From: a bacterium
GTDB lineage: Bacteria > Krumholzibacteriota > Krumholzibacteriia > LZORAL124-64-63
DNA: 64,000 bases
Direction: 5' to 3'
Assembly (NCBI GenBank): GCA_024231905.1
Contig: JAAEQC010000199.1
Coordinates: 124,001 to 188,000 of the forward strand
In this document: in pieces, positions 11,566-26,818 of the stretch
Layout of the letters: the number at the start of each line of letters is the position of its first letter
Position numbering within the stretch: position 1 is the first letter of the stretch
The notes under the pieces: model-generated
The model's input: only the letters and a program-made list of their open reading frames with translations
Told to the model about the DNA's origin: nothing
The model's database searches: none
Translations under genes and position numbers: made by a program

Positions 11566-12768
11566 TCAGAGCCGGAGCCGGCGCAACTTCAGCGCCGCGT
11601 CGGGGTCGTCGGGATCGCGCGCCAGGGACTCGCCGTAGCTGGCGGCGGCCTGCACCGTATCACCCAGGGTGACGTAGGCGTCGCCGAGGCCGTTGCAGGC
11701 GGCGGCGGACCCGGGGTAGGCCGTGACGTTGCGGCGGAAGACCGTGATGGCGTCCTCCGTCCGCCCGTCGGCCAGCAGCGCGTGGGCGAACCCGTTGACG
11801 ACGGACTCCGTGTAGTCACGACCGAAGGTGGCCAGACCCAATCCCTGGAGCTCGTCCAGGTCTTCGATCATCTCCTCCACCGGTTTGCGGCCGGCGAGAT
11901 CCTGCAGCAGCATATCCAGCCGGCGTGGCGCGTCCAGGTGCAGGGCGTGGGTGAGGTGCGGAAAGAGCGAGGGCAGCGGGCGGTAGGCCTCTCCGTTGGC
12001 CAGTTCTTCAGCCACGTCGAGCAGGACATCGCTCTCGAAGTCGTGGAAGTTGTAGATGCGGATCGTGCCCGCACCGAGATCGCAGACGTACGAGTACAGG
12101 GTCGTCGTCTCGTCGTCCTCGAAGCTCGTAGCCGACAGGATGCTGCGCATCAGGTCCAGGGAGTGGTTCTCCGCCTCCACGAGCATGGATTCGGCCGTCA
12201 GGTAGCGGTGACCGGGTTCGGAGCCGCGGTCAGGGTCCGATTGCCGGAAGTTCGTCGAGACCAGGAAGCCGTCGTCGGGGCGGATGATCTGCAGCGCTCC
12301 CTGCGACCATTCGACCACGGCGGACGCCCCCGATCGGTCCGCCAGGAGGAATTTGCCCCGGGCGAGCACCGCCACATTGGTGGTCCGGAACCAGGTGAGG
12401 GCTTCATCGACCGTGGCGAACCGGGCCAGGACGTGGGACTCGACGATGCCCGCGTGGGTCTCGTGCCCCGCCTCGGGTTGCCAATCGGTCGCGCCGACCG
12501 CATTGCCGTCCACGAACAGGCCCCGCTCGTTGACTCCGCCGAGGGTCGCGAGCCGGTTGCCCCCGATGTTGAATCCAAAGCAGATCCTGCCGTACTCGGT
12601 GTCCGTCGCCGGCAGGATCTGGATCGCGGTGAACGGATAGGCGCCGTCCTCGTTGTTGCCGACCAGGACCTGGTCGTCCCGGGCCGTGGCGACGATGGTG
12701 CAGGCGGTTGCGCCGGACGGCAGGGAAGTTACGGCGATCAGGACCAGAATCATGGCGATACGGAGCAT
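11566..12768 (-). CDS. Exported Ntn-type linear amide hydrolase (C45/choloylglycine-like) with TPR tail
   Basis: The ATG at 12768 (GAGGG upstream) gives a 400-residue protein with a signal peptide that ends AxA just before Cys23 (GATA-CTIVATARDD). In choloylglycine hydrolase / penicillin V acylase / C45 peptidases this cysteine becomes the N-terminal nucleophile after processing. VLVGNNEDG, GGVNERGLFVDGNA and FLVSTNFRQSDP match the family pattern. The last 80 residues form two TPR-like helical pairs (AITVFRRNVTAYPGSAAACNGLGDAY, then AAASYGESLARDPDDPDAA). Expected reaction: hydrolysis of a linear C-N amide in a periplasmic or secreted peptide, bile-salt-like or lactam substrate. The TPR fusion is uncommon. 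An upstream in-frame ATG (12843) lacks signal-peptide logic. Confidence 0.7.
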   Translation of the reverse strand: MLRIAMILVLIAVTSLPSGATACTIVATARDDQVLVGNNEDGAYPFTAIQILPATDTEYGRICFGFNIGGNRLATLGGVNERGLFVDGNAVGATDWQPEAGHETHAGIVESHVLARFATVDEALTWFRTTNVAVLARGKFLLADRSGASAVVEWSQGALQIIRPDDGFLVSTNFRQSDPDRGSEPGHRYLTAESMLVEAENHSLDLMRSILSATSFEDDETTTLYSYVCDLGAGTIRIYNFHDFESDVLLDVAEELANGEAYRPLPSLFPHLTHALHLDAPRRLDMLLQDLAGRKPVEEMIEDLDELQGLGLATFGRDYTESVVNGFAHALLADGRTEDAITVFRRNVTAYPGSAAACNGLGDAYVTLGDTVQAAASYGESLARDPDDPDAALKLRRLRL

Positions 12769-12986
12769 GGCACCCTCGAACTCTTCGCTGGTCGGTGTCG
12801 GGTACAGGGAGGTCGTTTGGATAGACGGTTCATCCTGCGCCATGGTTTCCACCCTCGGTGCGGATCGCGCGTTCGAAGCTAAACGCCTTAAACCAGACAA
12901 GTTCCATCCGTTGCTGATATTCTAAAAAGCTTGAATTAGGTCGCGTGGCTCTCCATTCTTGGCCCATACCCTCCAAAGGAGCAGCC

Positions 12987-14168
12987 ATGGACCAGATCAT
13001 CTACCTGGACAACGCCGCCACCAGCTTCCCCAAGCCTGACGTGGTGCATGAATCGGTGCACGAATTCTACAGCACCACCGGCGTGAATCCCGGCCGCTCG
13101 GGCTGCGACCTGGGCCTGGCCGCCGAGGAGATGATCCACGGGACCCGCAAGGAGCTCTCCGCCTTCTTCAACCCGAGCCTGATCGAGGCCGGCGGCAAGA
13201 AGGATCCCAACCGGCTGGTTTTCACGGCCAACGCCACTGCGAGCCTGAACCTCATCATCAACGGCATGGTGAACGCGGGCGACCACGTGGTCACCACCCA
13301 CCTGGAGCACAACTCGGTGATCCGCCCGGTGAACCATCGGGTGAAGGCCGGGGCCGAGGCCACCTACGTCAAGCCCGACGACGAGGGCTACCTGGATCCC
13401 GAGGAGATCCGCAAGGCCATCCGGCCCAACACCAAGCTGGTCATGGTCAACCACGCCTCCAACGTCACCGGCGTGGTGCAGGACATCGCCGCCATCGGCG
13501 CCGTGTGCCGCGATGAGGGCGTGCCCCTGGCTGTGGACTCGGCCCAGACCGCCGGCGTGCTGGACATCGACATGCACCGGGACGGTATCGCCTTCCTGGC
13601 CTTCACCGGGCACAAGTGCCTTTTCGGTCCCACGGGCACCGGCGGCATTTGTGTGGCCGACGACGCCGAGATCGCCGGCACCGTCTACGGCGGCACGGGC
13701 GTCAAGAGCGCCTACCCCTACCACCTGGAGGAGTACCCCTACCGTCTGGAAGCGGGCACCCAGAACCTGGCCGGCATCGCCGGTCTGCGCGCCGGCCTGA
13801 ACTGGATCAAGGAGCAGGGCCGCGAGAAGATGTACCACCACGAGATGGAACTCTTCGGCCTGCTCCAGGCCGGTCTCGACGACATCGACGGAATCCACCT
13901 GGTGGGGACGCGGAAGCTTCAGCAGCGAGTCGCCACCCTGTCGATCATCGTGGACAATTACGATCCGTCGGACGTGGGCACTCTCCTGGATGTGGACCAC
14001 GATATCCTGACCCGCACGGGACTCCAGTGCGCGCCCCTGATCCACGAGCACCACGGCACGGCGCCGCGCGGTACGGTCCGCTTCTCCATGGGACCGTTCA
14101 GCGTGCGCGAACACGTGGACGTGGCCATCAAAGCCATGCAGGAGATCGTGGCGGCGCGGCCGGCCTAG
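12987..14168 (+). CDS. Cysteine desulfurase-family aminotransferase class V
   Basis: A 393-residue PLP enzyme with the family start IYLDNAATSFPKP, preceded by a strong AAAGGAG site. The PLP-binding lysine is K210 (FTGHKCLFGPTG) with VDSAQTAG before it. The reactive-loop cysteine is C348 (RTGLQCAPLIHE), as in SufS-type cysteine desulfurases. The likely reaction is cysteine to alanine plus an enzyme persulfide, feeding Fe-S cluster, thio-cofactor or possibly selenium metabolism. No suf or isc partners adjoin it. It is divergent from the Ntn-hydrolase gene across a 218-base region with AT-rich sequence (12910-12945) where both promoters should lie. The exact sulfur acceptor cannot be told from the sequence. 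Confidence 0.88.
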   Translation: MDQIIYLDNAATSFPKPDVVHESVHEFYSTTGVNPGRSGCDLGLAAEEMIHGTRKELSAFFNPSLIEAGGKKDPNRLVFTANATASLNLIINGMVNAGDHVVTTHLEHNSVIRPVNHRVKAGAEATYVKPDDEGYLDPEEIRKAIRPNTKLVMVNHASNVTGVVQDIAAIGAVCRDEGVPLAVDSAQTAGVLDIDMHRDGIAFLAFTGHKCLFGPTGTGGICVADDAEIAGTVYGGTGVKSAYPYHLEEYPYRLEAGTQNLAGIAGLRAGLNWIKEQGREKMYHHEMELFGLLQAGLDDIDGIHLVGTRKLQQRVATLSIIVDNYDPSDVGTLLDVDHDILTRTGLQCAPLIHEHHGTAPRGTVRFSMGPFSVREHVDVAIKAMQEIVAARPA

Positions 14169-14250: not shown

Positions 14251-14276
14251 CCCGTCCTCCCCAGGTGTCAGGACCG

Positions 14277-14888
14277 ATGGAAGCCCATTTCGACCAGGCC
14301 TCGGATCAGGAACTGCTGTCCTTGTGGCAGCAGGCGCCCGGCACCCCGGGCGCGCGACCGGCGGCTGCCGAACTCCTGGGCCGGTACCGGCAGCGCATCT
14401 ACCGCTGGTGCCGTCGCTACGTGCGGGAGCCCGACGAGGCCCTCGACCTGGCCCAGGACGTCCTGCTGACGGCCTTCGAGCAACTGGAGACCCTGCCGGC
14501 CGGGATCCGCTTCGGCGCCTGGATGTATACGGTCACCCGCAATCGTTGCCTGGCGGAGATCCGGCGGCAGCGCGTGCGGATCGTGGCGCCGGTGGCTCCG
14601 GAGGCCATGCCGGCGGCGACCAGGGATCCGGAGGTGCAACTCCTGGACGACCTGGCCGAGGACCGGTTCCTGGAACTCATCCACCGGGTGCTGGACGCCC
14701 AGGAGCAGGAGGCGGTCAGCCTGCGCTGCTTCGAGAGGCTGCCCGTGGACCAGGTGACCGCTTTGCTGGGACTGACTTCGGCCACCGGCGCGCGCGGTGT
14801 CCTGCAGCGGGCCCGGCGCAAACTGAAGGTGGCCATGGAGCAGGAGGAGCGGCGGGAGCGCCGCGACGGAGGGAAGGTCGGACCATGA
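14277..14888 (+). CDS. ECF-type RNA polymerase sigma factor
   Basis: A 203-residue sigma70-family protein. Region 2 runs from about 25 to 100 (IYRWCRRYVREPDEALDLAQDVLLTAFEQL, then RFGAWMYTVTRNRCLAEIRRQR). Region 4 is at 140-190 (QEAVSLRCFERLPVDQVTALLGL ... GVLQRARRKLKVA). Regions 1 and 3 are missing, as usual for extracytoplasmic-function factors. The ATG at 14277 fits an AGGTG site; a GTG at 14265 is an alternative. The stop overlaps the next gene's start (ATGA at 14885-14888), so sigma and anti-sigma are translationally coupled. Likely role: switching on a surface-stress or secretion regulon when the membrane anti-sigma lets go. Confidence 0.9.
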   Translation: MEAHFDQASDQELLSLWQQAPGTPGARPAAAELLGRYRQRIYRWCRRYVREPDEALDLAQDVLLTAFEQLETLPAGIRFGAWMYTVTRNRCLAEIRRQRVRIVAPVAPEAMPAATRDPEVQLLDDLAEDRFLELIHRVLDAQEQEAVSLRCFERLPVDQVTALLGLTSATGARGVLQRARRKLKVAMEQEERRERRDGGKVGP

Positions 14889-15526
14889 GATCGTGTCCGG
14901 ACATCACCGAACTGGTCGGAGCGGAGCATCTGTCGGAGGATCACCCCTTGCGGCAGCACTTGCGGGCGTGCGGCCGTTGCCGCGCCTCGTTGAGGGCCTA
15001 CGAGGCCTTCCGCGACGAGGCGCCGGGCAGGGACGTGACCGACGCCGAAGTGGCGCGGGCCGATGGCAGGCTCGCCGAGTACATCGAAACCCGAATGCGC
15101 GCCCGGGAAGACGCGCCGCCGGCCCAGGACTGGTCACGGGGTTGGATGGCCATGGCTGCCGTGCTCCTGGTCGCGGTGGGCCTCTGGGCCGTCGGCCCCC
15201 ACCTGACCGGCACGGCCCTGGATACCGGAGACCGGTTGCGTGGGGATGCAATGGAGGCCGCGCCCGCCGCGGCGCCGGTGACGGCGACCGTGGTCGCTCC
15301 GGGAGAAGTGCTCATTCGCTGGGACCCCGTGGCGGGCGCCGAGGATTACGAAATCATCCTCTGGACCGCCGCCCTCGAGGAATTCGCGCGCGTGGGGCCC
15401 TTGACCGGTACCGAAGGGCCGGCCGCCTGGGACGCCGAGGCGGAGCCGGGACCCGTCTTCTTCTCTGTCGTGTCCCGCCAGGCAGGCCGGGAGATCGCCC
15501 GTTCCGATCTGATCAGCCTGCCCTGA
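14885..15526 (+). CDS. Membrane anti-sigma factor with zinc-finger-like motif and FN3-like exterior
   Basis: A 213-residue protein coupled to the ECF sigma by ATGA overlap. The N-terminus has HxxxCxxC (HLRACGRC), the zinc-binding anti-sigma (ZAS) signature that grips the sigma factor in the cytoplasm. One transmembrane helix follows (GWMAMAAVLLVAVGLWAVG). Outside it is an Ala-rich linker and a single fibronectin type III-like sheet (EVLIRWDPVAGAEDYEIILW ... FFSVVSRQ). The signal is presumably sensed outside. Its last 14 bases overlap the convergent CHAT gene's end (15513-15526), so the two transcripts are antisense at their 3' ends. Confidence 0.82.
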   Translation: MRSCPDITELVGAEHLSEDHPLRQHLRACGRCRASLRAYEAFRDEAPGRDVTDAEVARADGRLAEYIETRMRAREDAPPAQDWSRGWMAMAAVLLVAVGLWAVGPHLTGTALDTGDRLRGDAMEAAPAAAPVTATVVAPGEVLIRWDPVAGAEDYEIILWTAALEEFARVGPLTGTEGPAAWDAEAEPGPVFFSVVSRQAGREIARSDLISLP

Positions 15527-18275
15527 TCCTCAGGGACACGATCACGCCGGCGACCAGCGCGCCGGCCATGACCAGCCACCACCCACCCAGTCCGCCTGCC
15601 CGTTTTTGCAGAGGGAAATGCGTATCGCCTTCACCCGCGAGGACGAAGCTCGCCCACGCGCCGGGGTGGGCCGAGTCCGCGGCTCCGCGCAGGACCGACT
15701 GGGCCGATTGCAGGGCTTGCGCCGTGGTCAATCCCTCGGCCAAGGCGGCGTAGAAGGCGCCGGAGAAGGCGGTGGCGGTGCGGTCCGTCACCGGCCACAG
15801 GGTGGCGACCACGGCGGGCACGCCGGCGCCCAGGAAGGCGCTGGACAGTCCGAGTTGACCCTCGCCGACCAGGGCTTGGCTTCCCACCGATTCGCAACTG
15901 GCCAGGACCGCCAGCCGGTAGGGCAGCTGCTCGCGGGCGACGGCGCCGGCGCGGAGCAGATTCTCCACCGGGTCGTCGCCCAGGACGAAGGCCGAACGCC
16001 AGGGATGGAGCGGATCGATCAGGGCGTGGGCGGCCAGATGGAGAATGTCCTCCGGCTGTCCGGCGAGCAACCGGTCGGGTTCCGGGTCGATCATGATCCG
16101 CACCGCGGCGTAGGCATGCTGCAGGTCCTCTGCCTCACGGCGGGGTCCTGCCAGCGCGGTCCCGTCCGCGCCACGTGTGCCGGCCACCGCGAGGATCGAC
16201 GGCAACTCCGCCGTCGGGACTCCAGCGGGCTGGCCGCGCTGGTGTAACAGGGCGCTCGCAGAGGGCACGCGCGTGATGGTGTGGGTCGTGGCCAGCAGGG
16301 CGCCCGCACGAGGGCCGCCGGGGGAGGGCAGAGTAGCCAGCGGGATCCGGTGGAGTGGACCATCCGGCGCCCAGATGATCGCTGTCGCGGTCCCCACGAG
16401 ATCCTCGATCCCGGCGAAGAGGACCTGCGCGACCCGCTGCGCAGCTGCGGATCCGTCGTTGCCTCCCGGCCGGTCGGTGGCCAGGACCGCGCGGTAGTTG
16501 GCGAACAGGTCCGCCACTTGGGGCAGCGCCGCCAGCCGCGCCGCCCGTACGGTCCCGGTGGTGACGGCGAAGACGAAGGAACCCTCCGGGCCCAGATAGT
16601 AGTCCAGGAAGATCTCTCCGGGCCGCAGTGCGTTTCTCTGCAGTTCGGACAGGCAACCGGCCTCGGTCGCCGCTGTGGGTTGCACCGGCGCACCGTAGGC
16701 GCCGGGGCCGAGCATGGTTTCCGACAGGGTGCGGGCCTTGAAGGCGTGGACCGCGTCGTGGGCTACGCCGGGATCGTCCTCGCGTAGCAGCAGGTCTGCC
16801 AGCCGGGGATAGATCTGCTGGGCGTTGGTCCCCCGCTGCTCGCGCCACCGCGGGTCCAGGGGCAAGCCCCGTTCCGTCTCCCAGGCCGCGGCCGCCAACC
16901 GGAACCAGGCCAGGGCGCTGTCCGGCCGATCCTCGGCCAGGTGGATGCTGCCGCCCCGGGTGCGGGCGGCCACCCGGTATCCAGTCAGGCCGGAGGCGGC
17001 TGCCTCGCCGGCGACGGCGTCGAGCGCCGCCAACGCCCGGGCCGAACGTCCGACGTCCGCCAGGCGCTGACCGTAGGCCAACTCCAGCATGAGCCGCTCG
17101 CTGCCGGCGGTCCGTTCCAGGTATTCGCGCCGGGCCCGCTCTACGGTCATCAGGCCTGCCGCCGTGCTGTCCATCTCGGCCTGGACCCGGGCCAGTCCGG
17201 TCAGATGGCGGACTCGGGAGCCCACGGGCAGCTCCGCATCCATGGTGACGATGCGCCGGTGCAGCGCCGCGGCCTCGGTAAAACGGTTCTGGAGCTCTCG
17301 CGCCCGCGCCAGCTCGTAGATCACGTTGGCCCGCAGGTCGGGGAAACCCTCGTCCGTGCATCGCTGGTCCAGTTCGTGGAGCAACTCGGCTGCCTCTGCG
17401 GGCCGGCCCTGGTTGATGAGGCAGACGGCGATATTCAGGGACGGGATCACCGCCTCGCGGGGCTGGTGCAGGGCCAGTTGCAGGTCACGGGATCGCTCGT
17501 AGTGGGGGACGGCTGCTCCGGGGTCGCCCAGCTTCTGCAACAGGGACCCCGTGTTGTTGTGGGCCATGGCTTCCACGAAGGCGTATCCGGTGCGCCCGGC
17601 CACGTCCATCAGTTCCCGGTAGATGGCCAGGGCTGTCTGGTAGTCGCCCTGACGCTGGAGCACCAGGGCGTAACCGTTGCGGGCCCAGATCTCGGCGTCG
17701 TGGTCACCGATCCCCGCGAAGAGGGAGACGGACCGGCCGTAATGGGTGCGGGCGTCGGCCAGGTGTCCACGGTTCAGGGCATCCCAGCCCAGACCGACCA
17801 GGGCCCATCCCTCGTGCAGGCTGTCGCCACGGGCCACCGCCAGGTTGCGCAGGCGCCGGTAGAGGACGCAGGCCCGTTCGGACTGGCCCTGGAGGCTCTC
17901 GGCCAGGCTCAGCCAGCGTACGGAGCGGGTCAGGTTCAGGGAGTCGCCACGGGCCTCGGCCAGGGCCGTCGACCGGGTCAGGACCTCGACGCCCTCGGCG
18001 GACCGACCGAAGGAGGTGTAGAGCCGCCCCCGGCGAACCAGGAGTTCCAGTTCATAGGCGCCGCCGTCGTCGACCGGTTCGGCGGACGCCGTATCGAGCA
18101 AGGAGTCGACGGCAGCCACCTGCCGGGCCGCGTGCAGGGAATCGACCGCCGCCAGGAGCCGGATCTGCGGTGGCGAGAAGGAGGGGGAGGGATCCGCCGC
18201 GAGGGCACCCGGCGCCGCGACCGCACCGGCCAGCAAGAGGATGAGCGTCAAGGCTGTCGGCCCGCGGTGCTCCAT
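15513..18275 (-). CDS. Membrane-anchored TPR-CHAT protease
   Basis: A 920-residue protein: signal peptide (ALTLILLLAGAVAAPGALA), then about a dozen TPR-like helical repeats (60-450). A CHAT (caspase-like) domain occupies about 520-880, and a C-terminal transmembrane helix runs 897-915. The catalytic pair is visible: His750 in ILHLAAHAL and Cys794 in LAVLASCES, with VVATLWPVTD completing the CHAT core. CHAT proteases cut after sensing a partner bound to the TPRs, as in TPR-CHAT of type III-E CRISPR. Here export and membrane anchoring argue for an envelope role, perhaps with the convergent sigma/anti-sigma pair. A -10 sits seven bases before the ATG and there is no ribosome site, so the mRNA may be leaderless. 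Confidence 0.85.
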   Translation of the reverse strand: MEHRGPTALTLILLLAGAVAAPGALAADPSPSFSPPQIRLLAAVDSLHAARQVAAVDSLLDTASAEPVDDGGAYELELLVRRGRLYTSFGRSAEGVEVLTRSTALAEARGDSLNLTRSVRWLSLAESLQGQSERACVLYRRLRNLAVARGDSLHEGWALVGLGWDALNRGHLADARTHYGRSVSLFAGIGDHDAEIWARNGYALVLQRQGDYQTALAIYRELMDVAGRTGYAFVEAMAHNNTGSLLQKLGDPGAAVPHYERSRDLQLALHQPREAVIPSLNIAVCLINQGRPAEAAELLHELDQRCTDEGFPDLRANVIYELARARELQNRFTEAAALHRRIVTMDAELPVGSRVRHLTGLARVQAEMDSTAAGLMTVERARREYLERTAGSERLMLELAYGQRLADVGRSARALAALDAVAGEAAASGLTGYRVAARTRGGSIHLAEDRPDSALAWFRLAAAAWETERGLPLDPRWREQRGTNAQQIYPRLADLLLREDDPGVAHDAVHAFKARTLSETMLGPGAYGAPVQPTAATEAGCLSELQRNALRPGEIFLDYYLGPEGSFVFAVTTGTVRAARLAALPQVADLFANYRAVLATDRPGGNDGSAAAQRVAQVLFAGIEDLVGTATAIIWAPDGPLHRIPLATLPSPGGPRAGALLATTHTITRVPSASALLHQRGQPAGVPTAELPSILAVAGTRGADGTALAGPRREAEDLQHAYAAVRIMIDPEPDRLLAGQPEDILHLAAHALIDPLHPWRSAFVLGDDPVENLLRAGAVAREQLPYRLAVLASCESVGSQALVGEGQLGLSSAFLGAGVPAVVATLWPVTDRTATAFSGAFYAALAEGLTTAQALQSAQSVLRGAADSAHPGAWASFVLAGEGDTHFPLQKRAGGLGGWWLVMAGALVAGVIVSLRIRAG

Positions 18276-18481: not shown

Positions 18482-18522
18482 AAAAAGGACCGGCCGGTAC
18501 CGCCTAGGCGACCGGCCGGTCC
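18482..18522 (-). terminator. Rho-independent terminator of the putative selenoprotein gene
   Basis: GGACCGGCCGGT (18487-18498) pairs perfectly with ACCGGCCGGTCC (18511-18522). On the minus strand a T5 run follows. It lies 21 bases past the stop at 18544. Confidence 0.8.
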
Positions 18523-18543: not shown

Positions 18544-19752
18544 CTAGCCCTGCTTCTCCTTGATGGCTTCCTCGAACTTGGCCAGCTGCTGCTGGAAGTA
18601 TTCCTTCTCCGGATCCAGGGCGAGGGCCTGCTTGATGCGCTCCACGGCTTCCTCGCAGTTGCCGCGGGCGTTGCAGATCTCCGCCGCGGTGTCCAGGATG
18701 TTGGCCCGCTGGCCGTCGGAAGAGGCCAGTTCCACGCCGCGCAGGGCGAAGTCCTCGGCTTCCGCGAGATTCGCGTCGTTCTCGAAGCACCACCAGGCGA
18801 AGTTGTTGAGCTGGTCGGGATCGTCCTGCCAGCCTTCGGGCATGGACTTACGCTTCAGCTCGATGGCCGCCGCCTTGTCCTTCTTCACCAGCAGCGCGTG
18901 ATCGACCGCCAGATTGGACCAGGTGCCGAGCACTTCGGGCTCGTCCGAGTCCACGGCTACCTCGTGGGCCTGCTCCAGGTAGGGGATAGCCTTTTCCGGC
19001 TGGCCGGTGGACTTGGCCAGAGCGGTCATCATCATGGCCACGCCCAGCTTGCCCTCGGCCGTGGCCAGGGGTTGGGCGATGATGGTCTTGGCCTCAGCGT
19101 CCACCTCGGCGAACTCGAACTGCTCCATGCGCGTGCCGTAGAACATGTTCGTGAGGATGCCCTCGGAGTACGCCGCCGCCGCCTCGGGACCCGGGTCCAG
19201 CTCGCGGGCCTTCTTGAAGTAGGCCACCGCGCCCTTGAAGTCGTATTCGGTGGAGGCGGCGTTGGCCAGGGTTTTGGCCAGGGCCAGCGTCGGCTCGTCC
19301 TCGTAGGCCTCGGCCTTGTGGGCCAGGGTCCGCTGATCGGCCAGGCCGGCGCGGGCATACTCGGCCCACTTCTCGGGTCCCTCGTAACCGATCCAGCGTT
19401 CGATTTCCTTGCCGTTGCTGTCGACCATCTTGAAGGTCGGGTAGCCGCGCACGTTGTATCGCTTGGCGACCTCGATCCCCTCACCCTTCTCGCAGTCGAC
19501 CGGGTAGAGGATGGCGTCCTCGACCACGGCCAGGATGTTCTCGTCACTCTCCGCCGCACGGGCGAACACCTTGCAGCCGGGTCACCAATCCGTGAAGAAG
19601 TCCAGGATGAGCGGCTTGTTCTCCTCGGCGGCGCGTTTCAGGGCCGCGTCGAACTCGGGGGTCTCGGCCAGGGCCGAGCCCGCCAGTCCGGCGACCAGGA
19701 CCAGCAATGTTCCGCACAGGAACAGCCGGTGGCGCAGGTTGCGAGCGTTCAT
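18544..19752 (-). CDS. Exported thioredoxin-like/TPR protein, probable selenoprotein (in-frame TGA = Sec57)
   Basis: The ATG at 19752 (GAGG six bases upstream) starts a signal peptide ending near ALAETPEF. The thioredoxin strand PLILDFFTDW is followed by TGA (19582-19584) and then P-G-C-K-V-F-A-R in the same frame. The normal W-C-x-x-C-K redox motif therefore reads W-U-P-G-C-K with selenocysteine at position 57. The fold continues unbroken: YPVDCEKGEG, VRGYPTFKMVDSNG with the cis-proline YPTF. TPR-like repeats follow to residue 402. A bSECIS-like hairpin starts 15 bases after the TGA. If Sec is inserted, this is an envelope thiol/selenol oxidoreductase or peroxide-handling protein. If not, the gene is split by a nonsense codon exactly at its catalytic residue, which is a less likely coincidence. 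Confidence 0.8.
19550..19566 (-). promoter_or_regulatory. bSECIS-like stem-loop downstream of the in-frame TGA
   Basis: In the mRNA, UUCGCC pairs with GGCGGA (six pairs, one G-U) around loop CGUGC. The loop begins 21 nt after the UGA. The published bacterial SECIS consensus asks for a loop 16-37 nt downstream, a short stem and a G in the first two loop positions; all are met. It is a short element that could arise by chance in GC-rich DNA. Confidence 0.55.
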
Positions 19753-19921
19753 GGTCGACCTCACTCGGGGGTATGCCGGCGGAAGGCCGGCGATGGAGCT
19801 GCGCGGTCAACCGGGGAACAGCCGCGCGGCTACGACGTGGTTTCATACTCCAGGAGTATGACAATACGTCGAATCCGCACGGCTGTTCCAGCGAAAACCG
19901 CACCTGGATTGCCGCCACCGG

Positions 19922-22405
19922 CTACTTCAGAAGCGTCATGCGCTGCAGGGCCGTTTCGCCGTCCGCCTCCAGCCGGGCCACGTACACGCCCGAGGGCAGG
20001 CGTCGCGGACGCCAATTCACTTGGTGGGGACCGGCGGCGAGCCTGCGGTCCACCAGGGTGGCCACCTTCCGGCCCGCCGTGTCGAAGACCTCCAGGCGCG
20101 CGCGGGCGGCCCGGGGCAGTTCGAAGGTGATCACCGTGCTGGGGTTGAACGGGTTCGGGCGGCTGCCCAGGCGTAGCGGCGTAGTGGGGACGTCCCGCAC
20201 GGGCGAGGGGTCTCCGGTCAGGGCCCAGATCTCGACGTCGTCGATGTTCCAGCCGCAGTAGTGCCACTTGTCGTCGGTCGTACCCATGGTCCAGCGGACG
20301 AACACCAGGGGCTGGCCGTCGGCCACGGCGCTGATGTCGATGTCCATCGGGGTCCAGTCCAGGTCCGTAACGGTGTCCTGGTTCTCCCAGACCGTGACCC
20401 AGGTGGTCCCGCCGGCGCTGACCTGGATGCTGGCGTGGTCGTAGTCGGGGGATTCCACGCCGAGCCAGCGCTGGAACCGCAGGGAGACCGCCTGGAGACC
20501 CGTGCAATCGTAGGGCGTGGCCATGAGGTACCGCTCGGGCAGGTCGCTCTCGTAATCGCCGTCCAGATTATAGCCGTACACGTTGAGACCGGTGGCGCCG
20601 GACGTGGGATCCGGTTCGCCGTAGGCCCCGCCGCCGCCAGTGGGCTGGCCGAAGGCCCACAGGCCCGAGGTGAACCACCCGGGGTTCGTGTCGAAGGATT
20701 CGGTGTAGACGGGTTCGCGTTCGCCCACCAGCAGAGTGGCGCGCCGGCTGGTGTCGCCGTCGCCGTCGGTGAGGTTGACGAAGTCCAGGGTTCCCGAGTG
20801 GAGCGCGACGCCGAGGCTGTTGGCGGCGGCGCCGATCGTCACGGTCACCTGGACGCTGGCGGCGGCGGCCAGGGTGCCGCCGGTCGGGGACACGTCCAGC
20901 CAGGTCGCGTTGGTGGCGGCGGACCAGTCCACGGTGCTCGTGTTGGAGCGATTGGTCACGGTGTAGACGATCTGGTCCGGGGCGAAGGGTCCGCCGGGGA
21001 TCCCCAGGGAGGCGAAACTGTCGGCGGGCGTGACCGCCATGCCGGTGGACCAAGGGGCCACCGTGTCGACGGTCAGGGCGCCGGTGTCACCCGGATCGAG
21101 CCAGTCCCGGAGCCGGGTGGCGGCCGAGCCCTGTCCGTTCCAGGAGACCGAGAAACGACCGTACCAATCGGATTCGTTGTTGCCGCAGGCGGCGTAACCG
21201 CCGTAGAGCTGGCCGACCACGCGATGGTCCGGGTCGAAGAGCGGTGCGCCGCTGGAACCGTCCTCTGTGGTGCCCAGATCCCAGTCTGCCACGCGGATGT
21301 ACAGGCCGTCACCCGGCGACGTGTAGCCGGAGCGACTCGTGGTGGTCGTGGGGTCGTCTTCGAAGCTGATGCTCTTCTCGTCCGCACTGGGGTGGTGGAC
21401 GCTCACGGCGCTGGCGAAGTCGCCAGTGGCTCGGTTCCAGCCCGCCCAGCTCACCTGGTGGGCCGGATCCGGGGCGTCGTCCAGTTCCAGGAGCGTGAAG
21501 TCGGTCAACGAGGAGTTGGCCCGGCGGACGGCGCCGGTCTGGAAATCGGTCAAGGGGCCGCCGGCCTGGTCACCGCAAGCAGGGCTCTGGAAGTTCCAGT
21601 AAACCACCAGCGAGGCGGCGTTGAGGTCGGTGATGCCGCAGTGGTTGGCGGTCTGGAAGTAGGGGGTCAGGTCCTCGGAGGTGTTGTTCACCATGAAACC
21701 GGTGCAGTACAGCGAACCGCCTCTGGAGTACACGGCCACCGAGTTGATCTCCCGCCGCCAGTCGTCACCCTCGGGGCAGATCACGTCGATGTTGCAGGCG
21801 CCGGCCTTGGCCGGGTCCTCGCCGAAGAGGCGGTAGCCCTGGTTGATGGACGTGAGGGCCAGTTCGTAGTCGTGGCGTGATTCCCGGGGCAGGATCAGTT
21901 CGATGACCACGTCGTCGGCCACCACCACCGGGGTCCACAACTGGCCGTGCTCCTCGTTGTCCCGGTCGGTAAAGACGCGGACGCCGCGGGGGTCGTCGGT
22001 CACCAGGTCGCGGGCCGGATGGATGGTCAAGCGGCCGCCCTTGGGCAGGCGGTAGGCGGTGAAGCCGAAGTTCACGGACAGGGCGCCTGGGGTCTGCACG
22101 CGCAGGCGCCACAGGTCGAAGTTGCGGTCGAGCTGTTCCCATACGCCATCCGTAGCGGGAGTCATGAAGACGTCCTCGGGCACGGCGAAGCGCGGGGGCA
22201 GACCTTCTTCCCGGCGCAGCAGGTCCTCCTGGCGCAGGGCCTCGAGGTCCAGGGGGGCGGCGGCCATGGTGGGTAGGGCGTCCACCTGGCGCACGGCGTA
22301 GTGGGGGGCGGCGGGACCGTCGAACGCCAGGGGCGAGGCGCCGGCTGCCGCGGCGACCAGGGCCGAGATCCCCAGGACGAGAGTGCAGAGAGTGGGTCGA
22401 TTCAC
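19922..22405 (-). CDS. Secreted lysyl-endopeptidase-like serine protease (copy 1)
   Basis: The GTG at 22405 (AAAGGA nine bases before) gives a signal peptide (PTLCTLVLGISALVAAAAG) and an 827-residue preproprotein. A propeptide runs to about 203; the mature start CNIDVICPEGDDW matches Achromobacter protease I. The triad is His255 (QTANHCG), Asp302 (TDFTLLELDD) and Ser385 (EDGSSGAPLF), a trypsin-fold S1 family. After the protease come an immunoglobulin-like segment (about 480-580), a MAM-like jelly roll ending HYCGWNIDDVEIW and the sorting-like domain (SRPNPFNPSTVITFELP ... KMTLLK-type end RMTLLK). Expected role: extracellular protein digestion after lysine or a related residue. It is the downstream twin of the next gene. 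Confidence 0.88.
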   Translation of the reverse strand: MNRPTLCTLVLGISALVAAAAGASPLAFDGPAAPHYAVRQVDALPTMAAAPLDLEALRQEDLLRREEGLPPRFAVPEDVFMTPATDGVWEQLDRNFDLWRLRVQTPGALSVNFGFTAYRLPKGGRLTIHPARDLVTDDPRGVRVFTDRDNEEHGQLWTPVVVADDVVIELILPRESRHDYELALTSINQGYRLFGEDPAKAGACNIDVICPEGDDWRREINSVAVYSRGGSLYCTGFMVNNTSEDLTPYFQTANHCGITDLNAASLVVYWNFQSPACGDQAGGPLTDFQTGAVRRANSSLTDFTLLELDDAPDPAHQVSWAGWNRATGDFASAVSVHHPSADEKSISFEDDPTTTTSRSGYTSPGDGLYIRVADWDLGTTEDGSSGAPLFDPDHRVVGQLYGGYAACGNNESDWYGRFSVSWNGQGSAATRLRDWLDPGDTGALTVDTVAPWSTGMAVTPADSFASLGIPGGPFAPDQIVYTVTNRSNTSTVDWSAATNATWLDVSPTGGTLAAAASVQVTVTIGAAANSLGVALHSGTLDFVNLTDGDGDTSRRATLLVGEREPVYTESFDTNPGWFTSGLWAFGQPTGGGGAYGEPDPTSGATGLNVYGYNLDGDYESDLPERYLMATPYDCTGLQAVSLRFQRWLGVESPDYDHASIQVSAGGTTWVTVWENQDTVTDLDWTPMDIDISAVADGQPLVFVRWTMGTTDDKWHYCGWNIDDVEIWALTGDPSPVRDVPTTPLRLGSRPNPFNPSTVITFELPRAARARLEVFDTAGRKVATLVDRRLAAGPHQVNWRPRRLPSGVYVARLEADGETALQRMTLLK

Positions 22406-22516
22406 GTGGGCATTCCTTTCAGCGACGTTCGGGCCCGCGATCAACCTATAATAATACATCAATTAGGGAGTGAATTCCTCACGAAGTCACGAACTGGCCG
22501 TGATGAACTAGCGCCA

Positions 22517-22575: not shown

Positions 22576-25056
22576 CTACTTCAGCAAGGTCATCCTCTGC
22601 AGGGCCGTCTCTCCGCCGGCCCGGAGCCGGATCACGTACATGCCCGAGGAGAGTCGGCGGGGGGCCCATGTCACCTCGTGGGGGCCGGCGCCGAGCCTGC
22701 GGTCCACCAGGGTGGCGACCTTCCGGCCCGCCGCGTCGAAGGCCTCCAGGTGCACGTGGCCGCTGCGGGGCAATTCGAAGGTGAAGGTCGTGCTGGGATT
22801 GAAGGGGTTCGGGCGCCCGCCCAGGCGCAGGGGTGCCGCCGGCACGCCCTCGGCGGACGAGACGTCGTCCACCAGGCCCCAGATCTCCACGTCGTCGATG
22901 TTCCAGCCGCAGTACTGCCAGCTGCTGTCGGTGGTGCCCATGGTCCAGCGGATGTACACCGTGGCCTGGCCGTCGGCCACGGCGCTGATGTCGATCTCCA
23001 CCGGGGTCCAGGCGGCGTCTTCGACGGCGCCGCCATTGGCCCAGACGGTGGTGAAGACGCTGCCGTCGTTGCTGACGGCGACGGATGCGTGATCGTAGGT
23101 GGAGGACTCCACACCGAGCCAGCGCTGGAAACGCAGGGACGTGCCCTGGATGTCCGAACAGTCGAATGCCGTCGAGATGAGGTGGCGCTGGGTCAAGAGG
23201 TTCTCGTAGTCCCCGGCCAGGTTGTAGCCGTAGACGTTGGTGCCGGTGGCCCCGGAGGTGGGGTCGGCCTCGCCGTACTGCCCGCCGCCGCCGGAGGGCT
23301 GACCGAAGGCCCAGAGGCCGGAGGTGGTCCAGCCGGGATCCGTATCCAGGGGTTCGCTGTGGACGACTTCGGGGAGGCCCACCTGCAGATTGGCCACGCG
23401 GACCGTGTTTCCTTCACCGTCGGTGACGTTGATGAACGAGACCGTTCCCATGTAGGTCCCGATGCCCAAGGCGTTGGCGGCGGAGTTGACGGTCACGGTC
23501 ACGGTCGCCGTGGCGCCGGCGACCAGGGTGCCGGACGTGGGGGTGAGGTCGAGCCAGGCCACGTCGGCCGCGGCTGACCAGTCGAGGGAAGCGGTCCCGT
23601 TGTTGTTCTCGAGGGTGTAGATGATCTCGTCGGGAACGAAGGGGCCGCCCTGCGGTCCCGCCGGGGCGAGGCTGCCGCTCGGCGTGACGGACAGACCCGA
23701 GGCCCAGGGAGCCAAGGTGTCGAGGGTCATGGCGCTCGTTCCCGTCGGGTCGAGCCAATCCCGCAGGCGCGAGGCCGCGGCGCCCCCGCCCTCCCAGGAC
23801 ACCGACACCCGACCGTACCAGTCGGAATCGTCATTGCCGCAAGCGGCGTAGCCGCCGTGAAGCTGTCCAACGACCCGATGATCCATGTCGAACAGCGGCG
23901 AGCCGCTGGAGCCGCCCTCGGTGGTGCCCAGGTCCCAGTCGATGACCCGGATGTGGGTGGCGTCGCCGGGCACGGTGTTGTTCAGATAGCTGGTGGTGGT
24001 CGTCGCGTCGTCCTCGAAGCTGATGCTCTTCTCGTCCGTGTTCGGGTGATGGATGCCCACGACGCCGGTGAAGTTCCCGGTAACGCGGTTCCACCCGGCC
24101 CAGCTCACGTTCCAGGACGGATCCGGGCTCTCGTCCAACTCGAGCAGTGTGAAGTCGGTGGGCTGGCTGGCGGCCCGGAAGAAGGCGCCCGTCTGGACGT
24201 CGGCCAAGGAGCCCCCGCCCTGCTGTCCGCAGGTGGGGCTCTGGAAGTTCCAGTACACCACCAGGGATGCGGCATTGGACGACGTGATTCCGCAGTGGTA
24301 GGCCGTCTGGAAATAGGGGGTCTGGTCCTGGGCGGTGTTGTTCACCATGTAGCCGGTGCAGAAGGTGGAACCGCCGGTGGAATAGACGGCCACCGAATTG
24401 ATCTCTTCGCGCCAGTCGTCGCCCTCGGGGCAGATCACGTCGATGTTGCAGGTGCCCGACTTGTCCGGGTCCTCGCCGAAGAGTCGGTAGCCCCTGTTGA
24501 CGGACGTGAGGGCCAATTCGTAATCATGGCGCGATTCGCGGGGCAGGACCAGCTCGACGACCACGTCGTCAGCCACCACCACCGGGGTCCACAGCTGGCC
24601 GTGGTCCTCGTTGTCCCGGTCGGTGAAGGTGCGCACGCCGCGGGGGTCGTCCCCGTCCACGGCCCCGGCCGGATGGACCGTCAGACGGCCGCCCTTGGGC
24701 AGGCGGTAGGCGGTGAAGCCAAAGTTCACCGAGAGGGCGCCGGGTGCCTGGACCCGCAGCCGCCACACATCGAAGTTGCGGTCGATCTGCTCCCAGACAC
24801 CGTCGGTGGCCGGGGTGATGAAGACGTCCTCGGTGAGGGCGAAGCGCTCGGGCAGCCCCTCGTCGCGTCGCAGGAGATCCTCCCGGCGCAGGGCTTCGCG
24901 GTCGAAGGGCGTGGCCGCCAGGGTGGGCAGGGCGTCCACGTGGCGGACCGCGAAGTGGGGGGCCACGGGGCCGTCCGTCGCCAGGGGAGTGGCGCCGAAC
25001 GCGGTGCTGGCGAGCAGGGTCGAGAGAACGAGCACCAGCAGGGTCATGCGCTTCAC
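22576..25056 (-). CDS. Secreted lysyl-endopeptidase-like serine protease (copy 2)
   Basis: A tandem paralogue of the downstream gene with the same architecture over 826 residues. The GTG start at 25056 is preceded by AAAGGA and followed by a signal peptide (RMTLLVLVLSTLLASTAFG). After the propeptide the mature start is again CNIDVICPEGDDW. The triad lies near His254 (QTAYHCG), Asp301 (TDFTLLELDE) and Ser384 (EGGSSGSPLFD). Ig-like, MAM-like (QYCGWNIDDVEIW) and NPFNP sorting-like domains follow (GRPNPFNPSTTFTFELP ... RMTLLK). Long stretches are identical to copy 1 (VNFGFTAYRLPKGGRLT, LPRESRHDYELALTS), so duplication was fairly recent. Differences cluster in the insert after SISFEDD and in the Ig-like part, which could tune substrate choice. 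Confidence 0.88.
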   Translation of the reverse strand: MKRMTLLVLVLSTLLASTAFGATPLATDGPVAPHFAVRHVDALPTLAATPFDREALRREDLLRRDEGLPERFALTEDVFITPATDGVWEQIDRNFDVWRLRVQAPGALSVNFGFTAYRLPKGGRLTVHPAGAVDGDDPRGVRTFTDRDNEDHGQLWTPVVVADDVVVELVLPRESRHDYELALTSVNRGYRLFGEDPDKSGTCNIDVICPEGDDWREEINSVAVYSTGGSTFCTGYMVNNTAQDQTPYFQTAYHCGITSSNAASLVVYWNFQSPTCGQQGGGSLADVQTGAFFRAASQPTDFTLLELDESPDPSWNVSWAGWNRVTGNFTGVVGIHHPNTDEKSISFEDDATTTTSYLNNTVPGDATHIRVIDWDLGTTEGGSSGSPLFDMDHRVVGQLHGGYAACGNDDSDWYGRVSVSWEGGGAAASRLRDWLDPTGTSAMTLDTLAPWASGLSVTPSGSLAPAGPQGGPFVPDEIIYTLENNNGTASLDWSAAADVAWLDLTPTSGTLVAGATATVTVTVNSAANALGIGTYMGTVSFINVTDGEGNTVRVANLQVGLPEVVHSEPLDTDPGWTTSGLWAFGQPSGGGGQYGEADPTSGATGTNVYGYNLAGDYENLLTQRHLISTAFDCSDIQGTSLRFQRWLGVESSTYDHASVAVSNDGSVFTTVWANGGAVEDAAWTPVEIDISAVADGQATVYIRWTMGTTDSSWQYCGWNIDDVEIWGLVDDVSSAEGVPAAPLRLGGRPNPFNPSTTFTFELPRSGHVHLEAFDAAGRKVATLVDRRLGAGPHEVTWAPRRLSSGMYVIRLRAGGETALQRMTLLK

Positions 25057-25129
25057 GATTGAGGTCCTTTCGGCGCGAGGAGTTCCGTCGATCACCCATG
25101 GATTCTAAGACAAAACTGTTACGATTCTC

Positions 25130-26818
25130 TCACGGCGCCGGCGATTCCAGGGCCGGGTTCTCGTAGCGGACCTCCCCATCCACCACCGTCATGAGCACCT
25201 GCATGTCCAGCAGATCGGCCGGTTCGCAGGCCACCGGATCCCCATCCAGCACCGTCAGGTCGGCCCGGTAGCCCGGGATGATGCGGCCCAGTTCGTTCTC
25301 GGCGAAGGCGGCATAGGCCGAACCCGCCGTGTACAACTCCAGGGCCGTGAGGCCGTCGAGCTTCTCCTGGGGCTGCCAGCCGCCCAGGGGCGAACCGTCG
25401 GGATGAGTGCGGGTGCGGGAGGCGTACAAGCCGGCCAGGGCGCTGACCCGCTCCACCGGGAAGTCGGTCCCCGAGCAGACGTGGGCGTCCGCTTCCAGCA
25501 GGCTGCGCCAGGCGTAGGCACCGGCCAGGCGCTCGGCGCCCAGGCGTTCGTGGGCCCAGTCCATGTCGCTGGTGCAGTGGACCGGCTGCATGGCGGCGAT
25601 GACGCCCAGTTCGGCGAAACGGGGGATGTCCGCCGGGCCGAGGATCTGGGCGTGCTCCACGCGCCAGCGGCGGTCGGCCGCGCCCAGTTCGGCGAAGACT
25701 TCCGCGTAGATGTCCAGGACCAGACGGTTGGCGGCGTCCCCGATGGCGTGGGTGCCAACCTGGAAGCCGCCGGCGGCGGCCCGGCGGCACATGGAGTCCA
25801 TGTGGGCCCGCGCGGTGACGGCCAGGCCGCGGCTGCCCGGTTCGTCCGAGTAGTCGGCCAGGAGCAGAGCGCCACGACTGCCCAGGGCGCCGTCGGCGTA
25901 GAGCTTGATAGTGCGCACGGTGAGCATGCCGTCTGCTTCGGCGACGGGGCCGGCGGCGAAACCCGATTCGAGGGTCTCGGGTTCGTCGTTGAGCATGCCG
26001 TAGTACCTGAGCCCCAGCTCGCCTGTGGCGGCCATCTCCCGGTACAGGCCGACGCTCTCCCAGGAGATGCCAGCGTCGTGGACGGCGGTGATGCCGTGGG
26101 CCAGGCAATGCTCCACCGCCATGCGAACCCGCCGGCGCCGTTCCGTGAGGGTGGGTTCGGGTACCACGTCGCGCACCAGGTCGACGGCGTTGTCCACGAG
26201 GATGCCCGTGGGCTCGCCGGCCTCGTCGCGCATGATCAGTCCGCCGGCCGGGTCGACGGTGGCGGCGGTGATGCCCGCCGCCGCCAGGGTCGCGGAACTC
26301 ACCCAGGCCGCGTGACCGTCCACCCGACGCAGGTAGACGGGCCGCCCGCCGCCCGCGGCATCGAGCAACGCGCGGTCCGGCCAGGCCGCCTCGGGCCAGT
26401 CGTTCTGGTCCCAGCCCCGGCCTTCGAGCCAGGTGCCGGGGGTGGCCTCCGCCGCCGCAGCGGCCACCAATTCGGCGCAGGCGGTGGCCGATCCGATCCC
26501 CCTCAGGTCGATCTGCACCAGGGACTTACCGAGCCCATAGAGGTGGCAGTGACTGTCCGCCAGGCCGGGCACCACCACAGCGCCGTCCAGGTCGACTTTC
26601 CGGTCTACGGCGCGGGAGGCGGCAAGCACCTCTGCATCCTGACCCACGATCTCGACGCGCCCGCCGCGGACCAGGACGGCCGTGGCGTCGTCGGGCTCGG
26701 CCGCGTCGAGGGTGATCACACGGCCGCCGTGCAGCACGAGTCCGGGCTCCACCGTGTCCCGGCAACCGGTGGCGATTCCGGCGAGAACGAGCACGAGAGC
26801 GAAGGCGATGCGGCGCAC
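25130..26818 (-). CDS. Amidohydrolase family 3 (YtcJ-like) lipoprotein
   Basis: A 562-residue metal-dependent hydrolase. The N-terminus has a short signal and a lipobox-like IATGC (Cys19), so it is probably lipid-anchored outside the inner membrane. Metal ligands of the TIM barrel are visible: HCH in VVPGLADSHCHLYG, the lysine region RTIKLYADGALGSRGALLL, HAIGDAANR, RVEHAQIL and the aspartate of VCSGTDFPVER. The C-terminus closes the beta-sandwich (IIPGYRADLTVLDGDP). YtcJ-type enzymes cleave N-acyl or formamide-like bonds, but the substrate range is wide and cannot be named here. It stands alone on the minus strand, divergent from the DinB gene by 85 bases. Confidence 0.85.
   Translation of the reverse strand: MRRIAFALVLVLAGIATGCRDTVEPGLVLHGGRVITLDAAEPDDATAVLVRGGRVEIVGQDAEVLAASRAVDRKVDLDGAVVVPGLADSHCHLYGLGKSLVQIDLRGIGSATACAELVAAAAAEATPGTWLEGRGWDQNDWPEAAWPDRALLDAAGGGRPVYLRRVDGHAAWVSSATLAAAGITAATVDPAGGLIMRDEAGEPTGILVDNAVDLVRDVVPEPTLTERRRRVRMAVEHCLAHGITAVHDAGISWESVGLYREMAATGELGLRYYGMLNDEPETLESGFAAGPVAEADGMLTVRTIKLYADGALGSRGALLLADYSDEPGSRGLAVTARAHMDSMCRRAAAGGFQVGTHAIGDAANRLVLDIYAEVFAELGAADRRWRVEHAQILGPADIPRFAELGVIAAMQPVHCTSDMDWAHERLGAERLAGAYAWRSLLEADAHVCSGTDFPVERVSALAGLYASRTRTHPDGSPLGGWQPQEKLDGLTALELYTAGSAYAAFAENELGRIIPGYRADLTVLDGDPVACEPADLLDMQVLMTVVDGEVRYENPALESPAP

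Follow-up and report, generated by a model that had tools for sequence, protein, structure and literature searches.

A probable family of exported thioredoxin-TPR selenoproteins with a U-x-x-C active site in Krumholzibacteriota and other bacteria

Introduction

Thioredoxin-fold proteins with selenocysteine (Sec) in a UxxC motif are the commonest kind of selenoprotein. An inventory published in 2026 comprises 119 prokaryotic selenoprotein families or subfamilies, and its Table 1 contains thioredoxin and thiol:disulfide interchange UxxC entries under PF00085 and PF13098 (PMC13188914). The same work gives rules for the bacterial SECIS (bSECIS) hairpin: a stem of 4-16 bp, a loop of 3-9 nt, a distance of 16-37 nt from the UGA, and a loop with a G in its first two positions followed by G or U (PMC13188914). 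An N-terminal thioredoxin domain followed by TPR repeats is known from the CnoX chaperedoxins, which exist as a CxxC reductase form and an SxxC non-reductase form (PMC6282202).

Here we describe a gene in a window of 64,000 nucleotides (the whole stretch of DNA analysed) from a genome of the class Krumholzibacteriia, whose product would combine a UxxC thioredoxin domain with a TPR solenoid and a signal peptide. This thioredoxin-TPR architecture has no entry among the 119 inventoried families (PMC13188914), and none of the curated selenoprotein models of NCBIfam 20.0 reaches its cut-off with the window protein. The best of these matches is TsoB (NF045694), with 43.8 bits against a cut-off of 805, and the VPGUxxT type 2 model scores 15.6 against 275. 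The first-pass annotation of this DNA had suspected a new selenoprotein. Measured against NCBIfam 20.0 and the 2026 inventory, the family and its architecture are indeed new, but UxxC thioredoxin-fold selenoproteins as such have long been known. In open-licence full texts, we found no study of Krumholzibacteriota selenoproteins beyond a passing mention in a bioreactor community, and an earlier sighting is possible.

Results

A single gene read through one TGA

The features of the locus are collected in Table 1. The first-pass annotation gave exact coordinates for the gene and left its strand unsaid; the strand is minus, and a plus-strand reading of the same interval was rejected, as its translation is an unrelated frame with no meaningful protein. 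Translated in the minus frame with TGA as Sec, the gene yields 402 residues with only one TGA, at residue 57 within FTDW-U-PGCK, and the D-W-U-P-G-C-K motif seen there has the TGA in place of the first cysteine of the thioredoxin motif, as had been annotated. The continuous frame, the ribosome site and the signal peptide claimed at the same time were all found again. The GAGG before the ATG has counterparts (GGAG or AGGAG) at the matching position before the start of the relatives' genes, and the signal peptide, recognized by eye, reads MNARNLRHRLFLCGTLLVLVAGLAGSALA and would be cleaved before the following E. Two Acidobacteriota orthologues carry a lipoprotein-type signal (LAGC) instead. GC content by codon position is 0.68/0.43/0.89 upstream of the TGA versus 0.66/0.40/0.90 downstream, and the similar third-position values indicate that both sides are coding and belong to one frame. 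A scan of the gene region for consensus promoters and terminators reported none; the arms of the terminator-like repeat noticed by eye (18511-18522 and 18487-18498) enclose a loop of 12 nt, which is beyond the loop limit of the scanner.

Table 1. Features of the selenoprotein locus and neighbouring genes (positions in the window)
Feature	Coordinates	Strand	Remarks
Selenoprotein gene, 402 codons	18544..19752	-	ATG at 19752, Sec codon 57, stop TAG 18546-18544
GAGG, ribosome-binding-site-like	19759..19762	-	6 nt upstream of ATG
Signal peptide, residues 1-29	19666..19752	-	By eye; cleavage between ALA and E; low-confidence N-terminal helix in AlphaFold model
Thioredoxin-fold domain, residues 41-131	19360..19632	-	Pfam Thioredoxin_2; Pro105 at cis-Pro place
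In-frame TGA, predicted Sec57	19582..19584	-	First position of U-x-x-C motif
Cys60, putative resolving cysteine	19573..19575	-	Invariant across 33-row alignment
Bacterial SECIS hairpin	19550..19566	-	6-bp stem TTCGCC/GGCGGA, loop CGUGC
TPR-like all-helical solenoid, residues 143-401	18550..19326	-	Pfam, alignment, AlphaFold model, Foldseek
Terminator-like 12-bp inverted repeat + TTTTT	18482..18522	-	Just 3' of stop codon; by eye
Trypsin-like (protease-like) exported protein	19922..22462	-	Tandem with, and related to, the next
Trypsin-like (protease-like) exported protein	22576..25095	-	
Amidohydrolase (Amidohydro_3)	25130..26818	-	Lipoprotein-like signal
CHAT-domain protein with TPR repeats	15513..18275	-	
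Sigma-factor-like gene	14265..14888		By eye
Cysteine desulfurase family protein	12945..14168	+	TIGR01977
C45-type acyltransferase/hydrolase-like protein	11566..12900	-	Below cut-off

Selenocysteine machinery

The source genome (4.6 Mb, 95% complete) encodes SelA (466 bits), SelB (350.9 bits against a cut-off of 242), SelD (358 bits) and a tRNA-Sec that scores above the Rfam gathering threshold and has the anticodon UCA (TCA in the DNA). The first-pass annotation had advised a search for exactly these four genes and had regarded a genome without selB or tRNA-Sec as the main argument against its reading; with the complete machinery present, that argument falls away. The SelD gene (L018) lies on the window's own contig (C199, 4387-5304) and carries one in-frame TGA, followed by the hairpin GTCCAGG-GGA-CCTGGAC with GGA as its loop, so that SelD is itself a predicted Sec protein. 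TGA is also in use as an ordinary stop: it ends seven of the 12 window genes checked, as well as some orthologues of the selenoprotein gene.

We also noticed a cysteine desulfurase family gene (400 bits against a cut-off of 377), some 4.4 kb away from the gene for the selenoprotein. The second-best model for its product, which scores below its cut-off, is the selenocysteine lyase SclA, and the enzyme is possibly involved in selenium delivery.

Orthologues and exchange of Sec, Cys and Ser

Orthologues were searched for in 98 relatives and then more widely outside the class; all named members derive from metagenome-assembled genomes, and no cultured host came to light. In the window's own family, the TGA form is present in 26 of 38 genomes, one more genome contains a fragment whose first residues lie beyond the site, and no Cys orthologue of this family was found among the 38. 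Orthologues with exactly one TGA have about 32-57% protein identity, and all aligned same-family orthologues that extend across the site have their TGA at one and the same codon. The named records of the TGA form belong to Candidatus Krumholzibacteriia/Krumholzibacteriota, and TGA is also found in Candidatus Polarisedimenticola svalbardensis and another Acidobacteriota bin. The wider searches added two families outside the class, with TGA in three (f73) and five (f106) genomes, respectively.

The exchange of Cys and Sec anticipated from the window is borne out by homologues that align with Cys at the TGA codon, such as the one in an Eisenbacteria bin, and by one (L057) with Ser. Among the genomes added by the wider searches, three combine a TGA copy with a Cys copy (G390, L105/L111; G392, L107/L110; G393, L106/L112), and G285 combines a TGA copy with a Ser copy (L099/L104; codon TCG, motif SxxC). 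The window's own genome contains a distant Cys-form paralogue with the motif KCGSC (L089, G000:C102:400-2400). A gene tree of 46 rows requires four changes between Sec and other states, versus 12.2 with shuffled labels, and at least two of the four are forced by well-supported branches. The state at this site has thus been inherited, and it has been swapped more than once. Loss of the Sec machinery was considered as the reason for the Cys form and rejected: SelB scores above its cut-off in four Cys-form genomes of the same class (G041, G045, G049 and G053), so machinery loss is not the cause of the exchange. One sequence from a Caldisericaceae bin (L062, 1686-2628), excluded from the tree, has the TGA and the hairpin in a broken frame, possibly through a binning or assembly error.

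A conserved SECIS-like hairpin accompanies the TGA

In the window gene, the letters TTCGCC-CGTGC-GGCGGA form a hairpin whose loop begins 21 nt after UGA57; as the first-pass annotation had claimed, it agrees with the published bSECIS rules for stem, loop and distance. A hairpin of 6-7 bp, always equally far downstream of the TGA and with the loop CGUGN (once CGGGC), is present in all 41 TGA-type sequences and in none of the 19 rows with Cys or Ser (at most 2 bp). These 19 include distant paralogues and, in L107 and L061, what looks like one record entered twice. In a first set, all 29 TGA rows had 6-7 contiguous pairs in columns 18-24/30-36 counted from the T of the TGA, with CGTGC or CGTGA as the loop, and none of seven non-TGA rows exceeded one pair.

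Synonymous recoding of these 29 rows with the genes' own codons gave a mean stem of 1.8 bp versus 6.9 bp observed, and the set mean never exceeded 3.6 bp; the hairpin is therefore not forced by the amino acids alone. CGT serves as the loop codon in 40 of the 41 TGA rows, whereas it makes up 8% of the other Arg codons of these genes. Compensatory pairs occur (C-G/U-A, G-C/A-U and G-C/C-G/U-A). Such changes were detected at three of the seven pairs in one alignment (A2), in which 98% of the cells are paired (35-57% in slid controls) and covariation reaches 0.26 (at most 0.16 in slid controls), also exceeding shuffles. In the larger set, the loop-closing pair changes from C-G to U-A in five rows.

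When the 42 bases following the window's TGA are folded whole, a competing structure is preferred (-13.3 kcal/mol). Once the first six of these bases are omitted, the SECIS hairpin becomes the minimum (-8.7, pair probability 0.99); a ribosome stalled at the UGA would cover those six bases. In a 30-nt stretch around the element, the hairpin is the minimum in all 41 TGA rows, and two non-TGA rows also passed this loose energy test, in a different register. An Rfam scan of the region gave no match, a result of little weight because bacterial SECIS elements are too variable for one general model. Taken together, the sequence data strongly support Sec insertion at UGA57 via SelB and the hairpin.

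Domain architecture and predicted structure

The Pfam Thioredoxin_2 match (49.4 bits, cut-off 27) spans the TGA, and Thioredoxin_2, Thioredoxin, Thioredoxin_7 and TPR models all fall on one continuous protein, most of them above their cut-offs. The thioredoxin and TPR homology initially noted downstream of the TGA is thereby recovered, with the thioredoxin domain crossing the codon and the TPR repeats lying toward the C-terminus. The AlphaFold2 model built on the 33-row alignment (mean pLDDT 93.9) shows a thioredoxin fold that leads into a helical solenoid. In Foldseek comparisons with the PDB, it matches consensus TPR superhelices and DsbD gamma (2FWH/1VRS; target-normalized TM-score about 0.7). 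Among solved chains, the putative disulfide isomerase 2KUC is closest in sequence (E 4.6e-16). The protein has the hallmarks of the thioredoxin superfamily, namely the fold, the W-[CU]-x-x-C motif and a proline at the cis-Pro place. Its TPR part contains a conserved motif, N-x-F-A-W-W-C-F-E-N, of which N316, A319, W321 and C322 are invariant in the 33-row alignment.

Genomic neighbourhood

In 14 related genomes, an Amidohydro_3 homologue lies directly upstream of the selenoprotein gene on the same strand, often divergent from a uracil-DNA-glycosylase-like gene, and in these relatives the amidohydrolase and selenoprotein genes may be carried on one transcript. The window keeps the order of amidohydrolase and selenoprotein gene, with the two trypsin-like genes interposed; this tandem is absent at the corresponding place in the relatives examined. 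The C-terminal parts of the trypsin-like paralogues are BACON-like and T9SS/FlgD-like. The CHAT-domain gene adjoins the selenoprotein gene, and the sigma-factor-like gene lies beyond it. The C45-type protein also ends in TPR repeats.

Discussion

The interpretation as a selenoprotein is upheld by the Sec machinery, the retention of the TGA in orthologues, the exchange of Sec with Cys (and Ser) and the co-occurrence of hairpin and TGA, and the gene very probably reads one UGA as selenocysteine. We consider it highly probable that the product is an exported Sec57-x-x-Cys60 thiol-disulfide oxidoreductase, composed of a DsbD-gamma-like thioredoxin domain and a TPR solenoid, with its UGA decoded by SelB. 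SelB loaded with Sec-tRNA(Sec) would bind the hairpin and insert selenocysteine at UGA57, and the 402-residue protein would be exported and lose its signal peptide, the feature that points to a periplasmic or other extracytoplasmic location. From the oxidoreductase function that we infer, the selenolate of Sec57 would attack an oxidized thiol or disulfide of the client, Cys60 would resolve the selenenyl-sulfide, and a membrane electron carrier of the DsbD/CcdA type would re-reduce the Sec57/Cys60 site, while the TPR part would hold the client or a partner. Two DsbD_TM genes are present in the source genome, and their products could supply the electrons.

It is also possible, if rather doubtful, that the protein is mainly a client-protecting chaperone outside the cytoplasm and not a general disulfide reductase, that is, a CnoX-like seleno-chaperedoxin whose Sec-x-x-Cys protects or reduces client cysteines under oxidative stress. 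The order of the domains, thioredoxin then TPR, is that of CnoX (PMC6282202), and the Ser homologue L057 is reminiscent of the SxxC form of those proteins. However, CnoX works in the cytoplasm with GroEL and DnaK, neither of which is exported, no CnoX-specific family model matched the selenoprotein, and the CnoX structure 3QOU is not among the structural matches listed by Foldseek. We regard as unlikely the more far-reaching proposal of a dedicated extracytoplasmic seleno-chaperedoxin system, in which a Sec redox site joined to a TPR client scaffold would share an operon with the gene of an exported amidohydrolase and would have been retained in Krumholzibacteriota, Acidobacteriota and other lineages, with a Cys paralogue dividing the work in some genomes.

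A genuine stop at the UGA, with a second gene downstream that starts at an internal codon such as the GTG at 19569, is very improbable. A 341-aa ORF (18544-19569) does exist, but a product starting there would split the thioredoxin fold behind its active site and lack the signal peptide; moreover, the 56 codons upstream and their frame are kept in orthologues, and the hairpin is kept only with the TGA. A sequencing error or a dead gene, which the single base separating TGA from TGC or TGT might suggest, is ruled out in practice: 41 sequences, drawn from some 40 genomes that were assembled separately, share this TGA at 32-57% protein identity, and none has a further internal stop. Reading of the TGA as another amino acid, by a reassigned code or plain readthrough, has a negligible chance of being correct: the frame is open under codes in which TGA is sense, but TGA terminates ordinary window genes and some orthologues, the genome has the complete Sec machinery, and homologues have a redox Cys at this position. 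All three of these readings were rejected.

The reading of a UGA-decoded selenoprotein adds a well-supported family, set apart by its architecture, its lineages and its presumed location in the cell. Standard gene-finding programs will break or shorten the genes of this family at the UGA. Its Sec, Cys and Ser versions form a natural series, in which some genomes have both Sec and Cys (or Ser) copies and others decode Sec and use the Cys form. This series makes the reason for keeping Sec at one site directly testable. The set of 41 hairpins, with fixed spacing and a near-invariant loop, also provides clean natural data on what SelB needs in these lineages.

Comparison with known systems

These exported redox selenoproteins form an apparently uncatalogued family, although their general type is well known. 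With the Sec-thioredoxins (PF00085/PF13098 UxxC) the family shares the thioredoxin fold, Sec in place of the first Cys of CxxC and a bSECIS element directly after the UGA, and a classification by domain only could lump it under these headings. In contrast to them, the window protein is predicted to be exported and carries a fused TPR solenoid some 260 residues long, a fusion absent from Table 1 of the inventory (PMC13188914). TsoB (NF045694), a rhodanese/DsbD fusion-like selenoprotein, has a DsbD-gamma-like thioredoxin stretch in common with it (E 9.5e-12), but differs in architecture and contains two Sec residues. The thioredoxin domain is most similar, in sequence and in fold, to DsbD gamma and to disulfide-isomerase-like proteins of the 2KUC type (Thioredoxin_7); these have Cys instead of Sec and no TPR part, and DsbD gamma is a domain within a membrane protein. 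The CnoX chaperedoxins resemble the family in their N-terminal thioredoxin and C-terminal TPR domains and in the Cys/Ser variants at the first active-site position (PMC6282202). However, CnoX is cytoplasmic and not a selenoprotein, whereas the signal peptide found in the window gene and in the orthologues whose start was read speaks for export.
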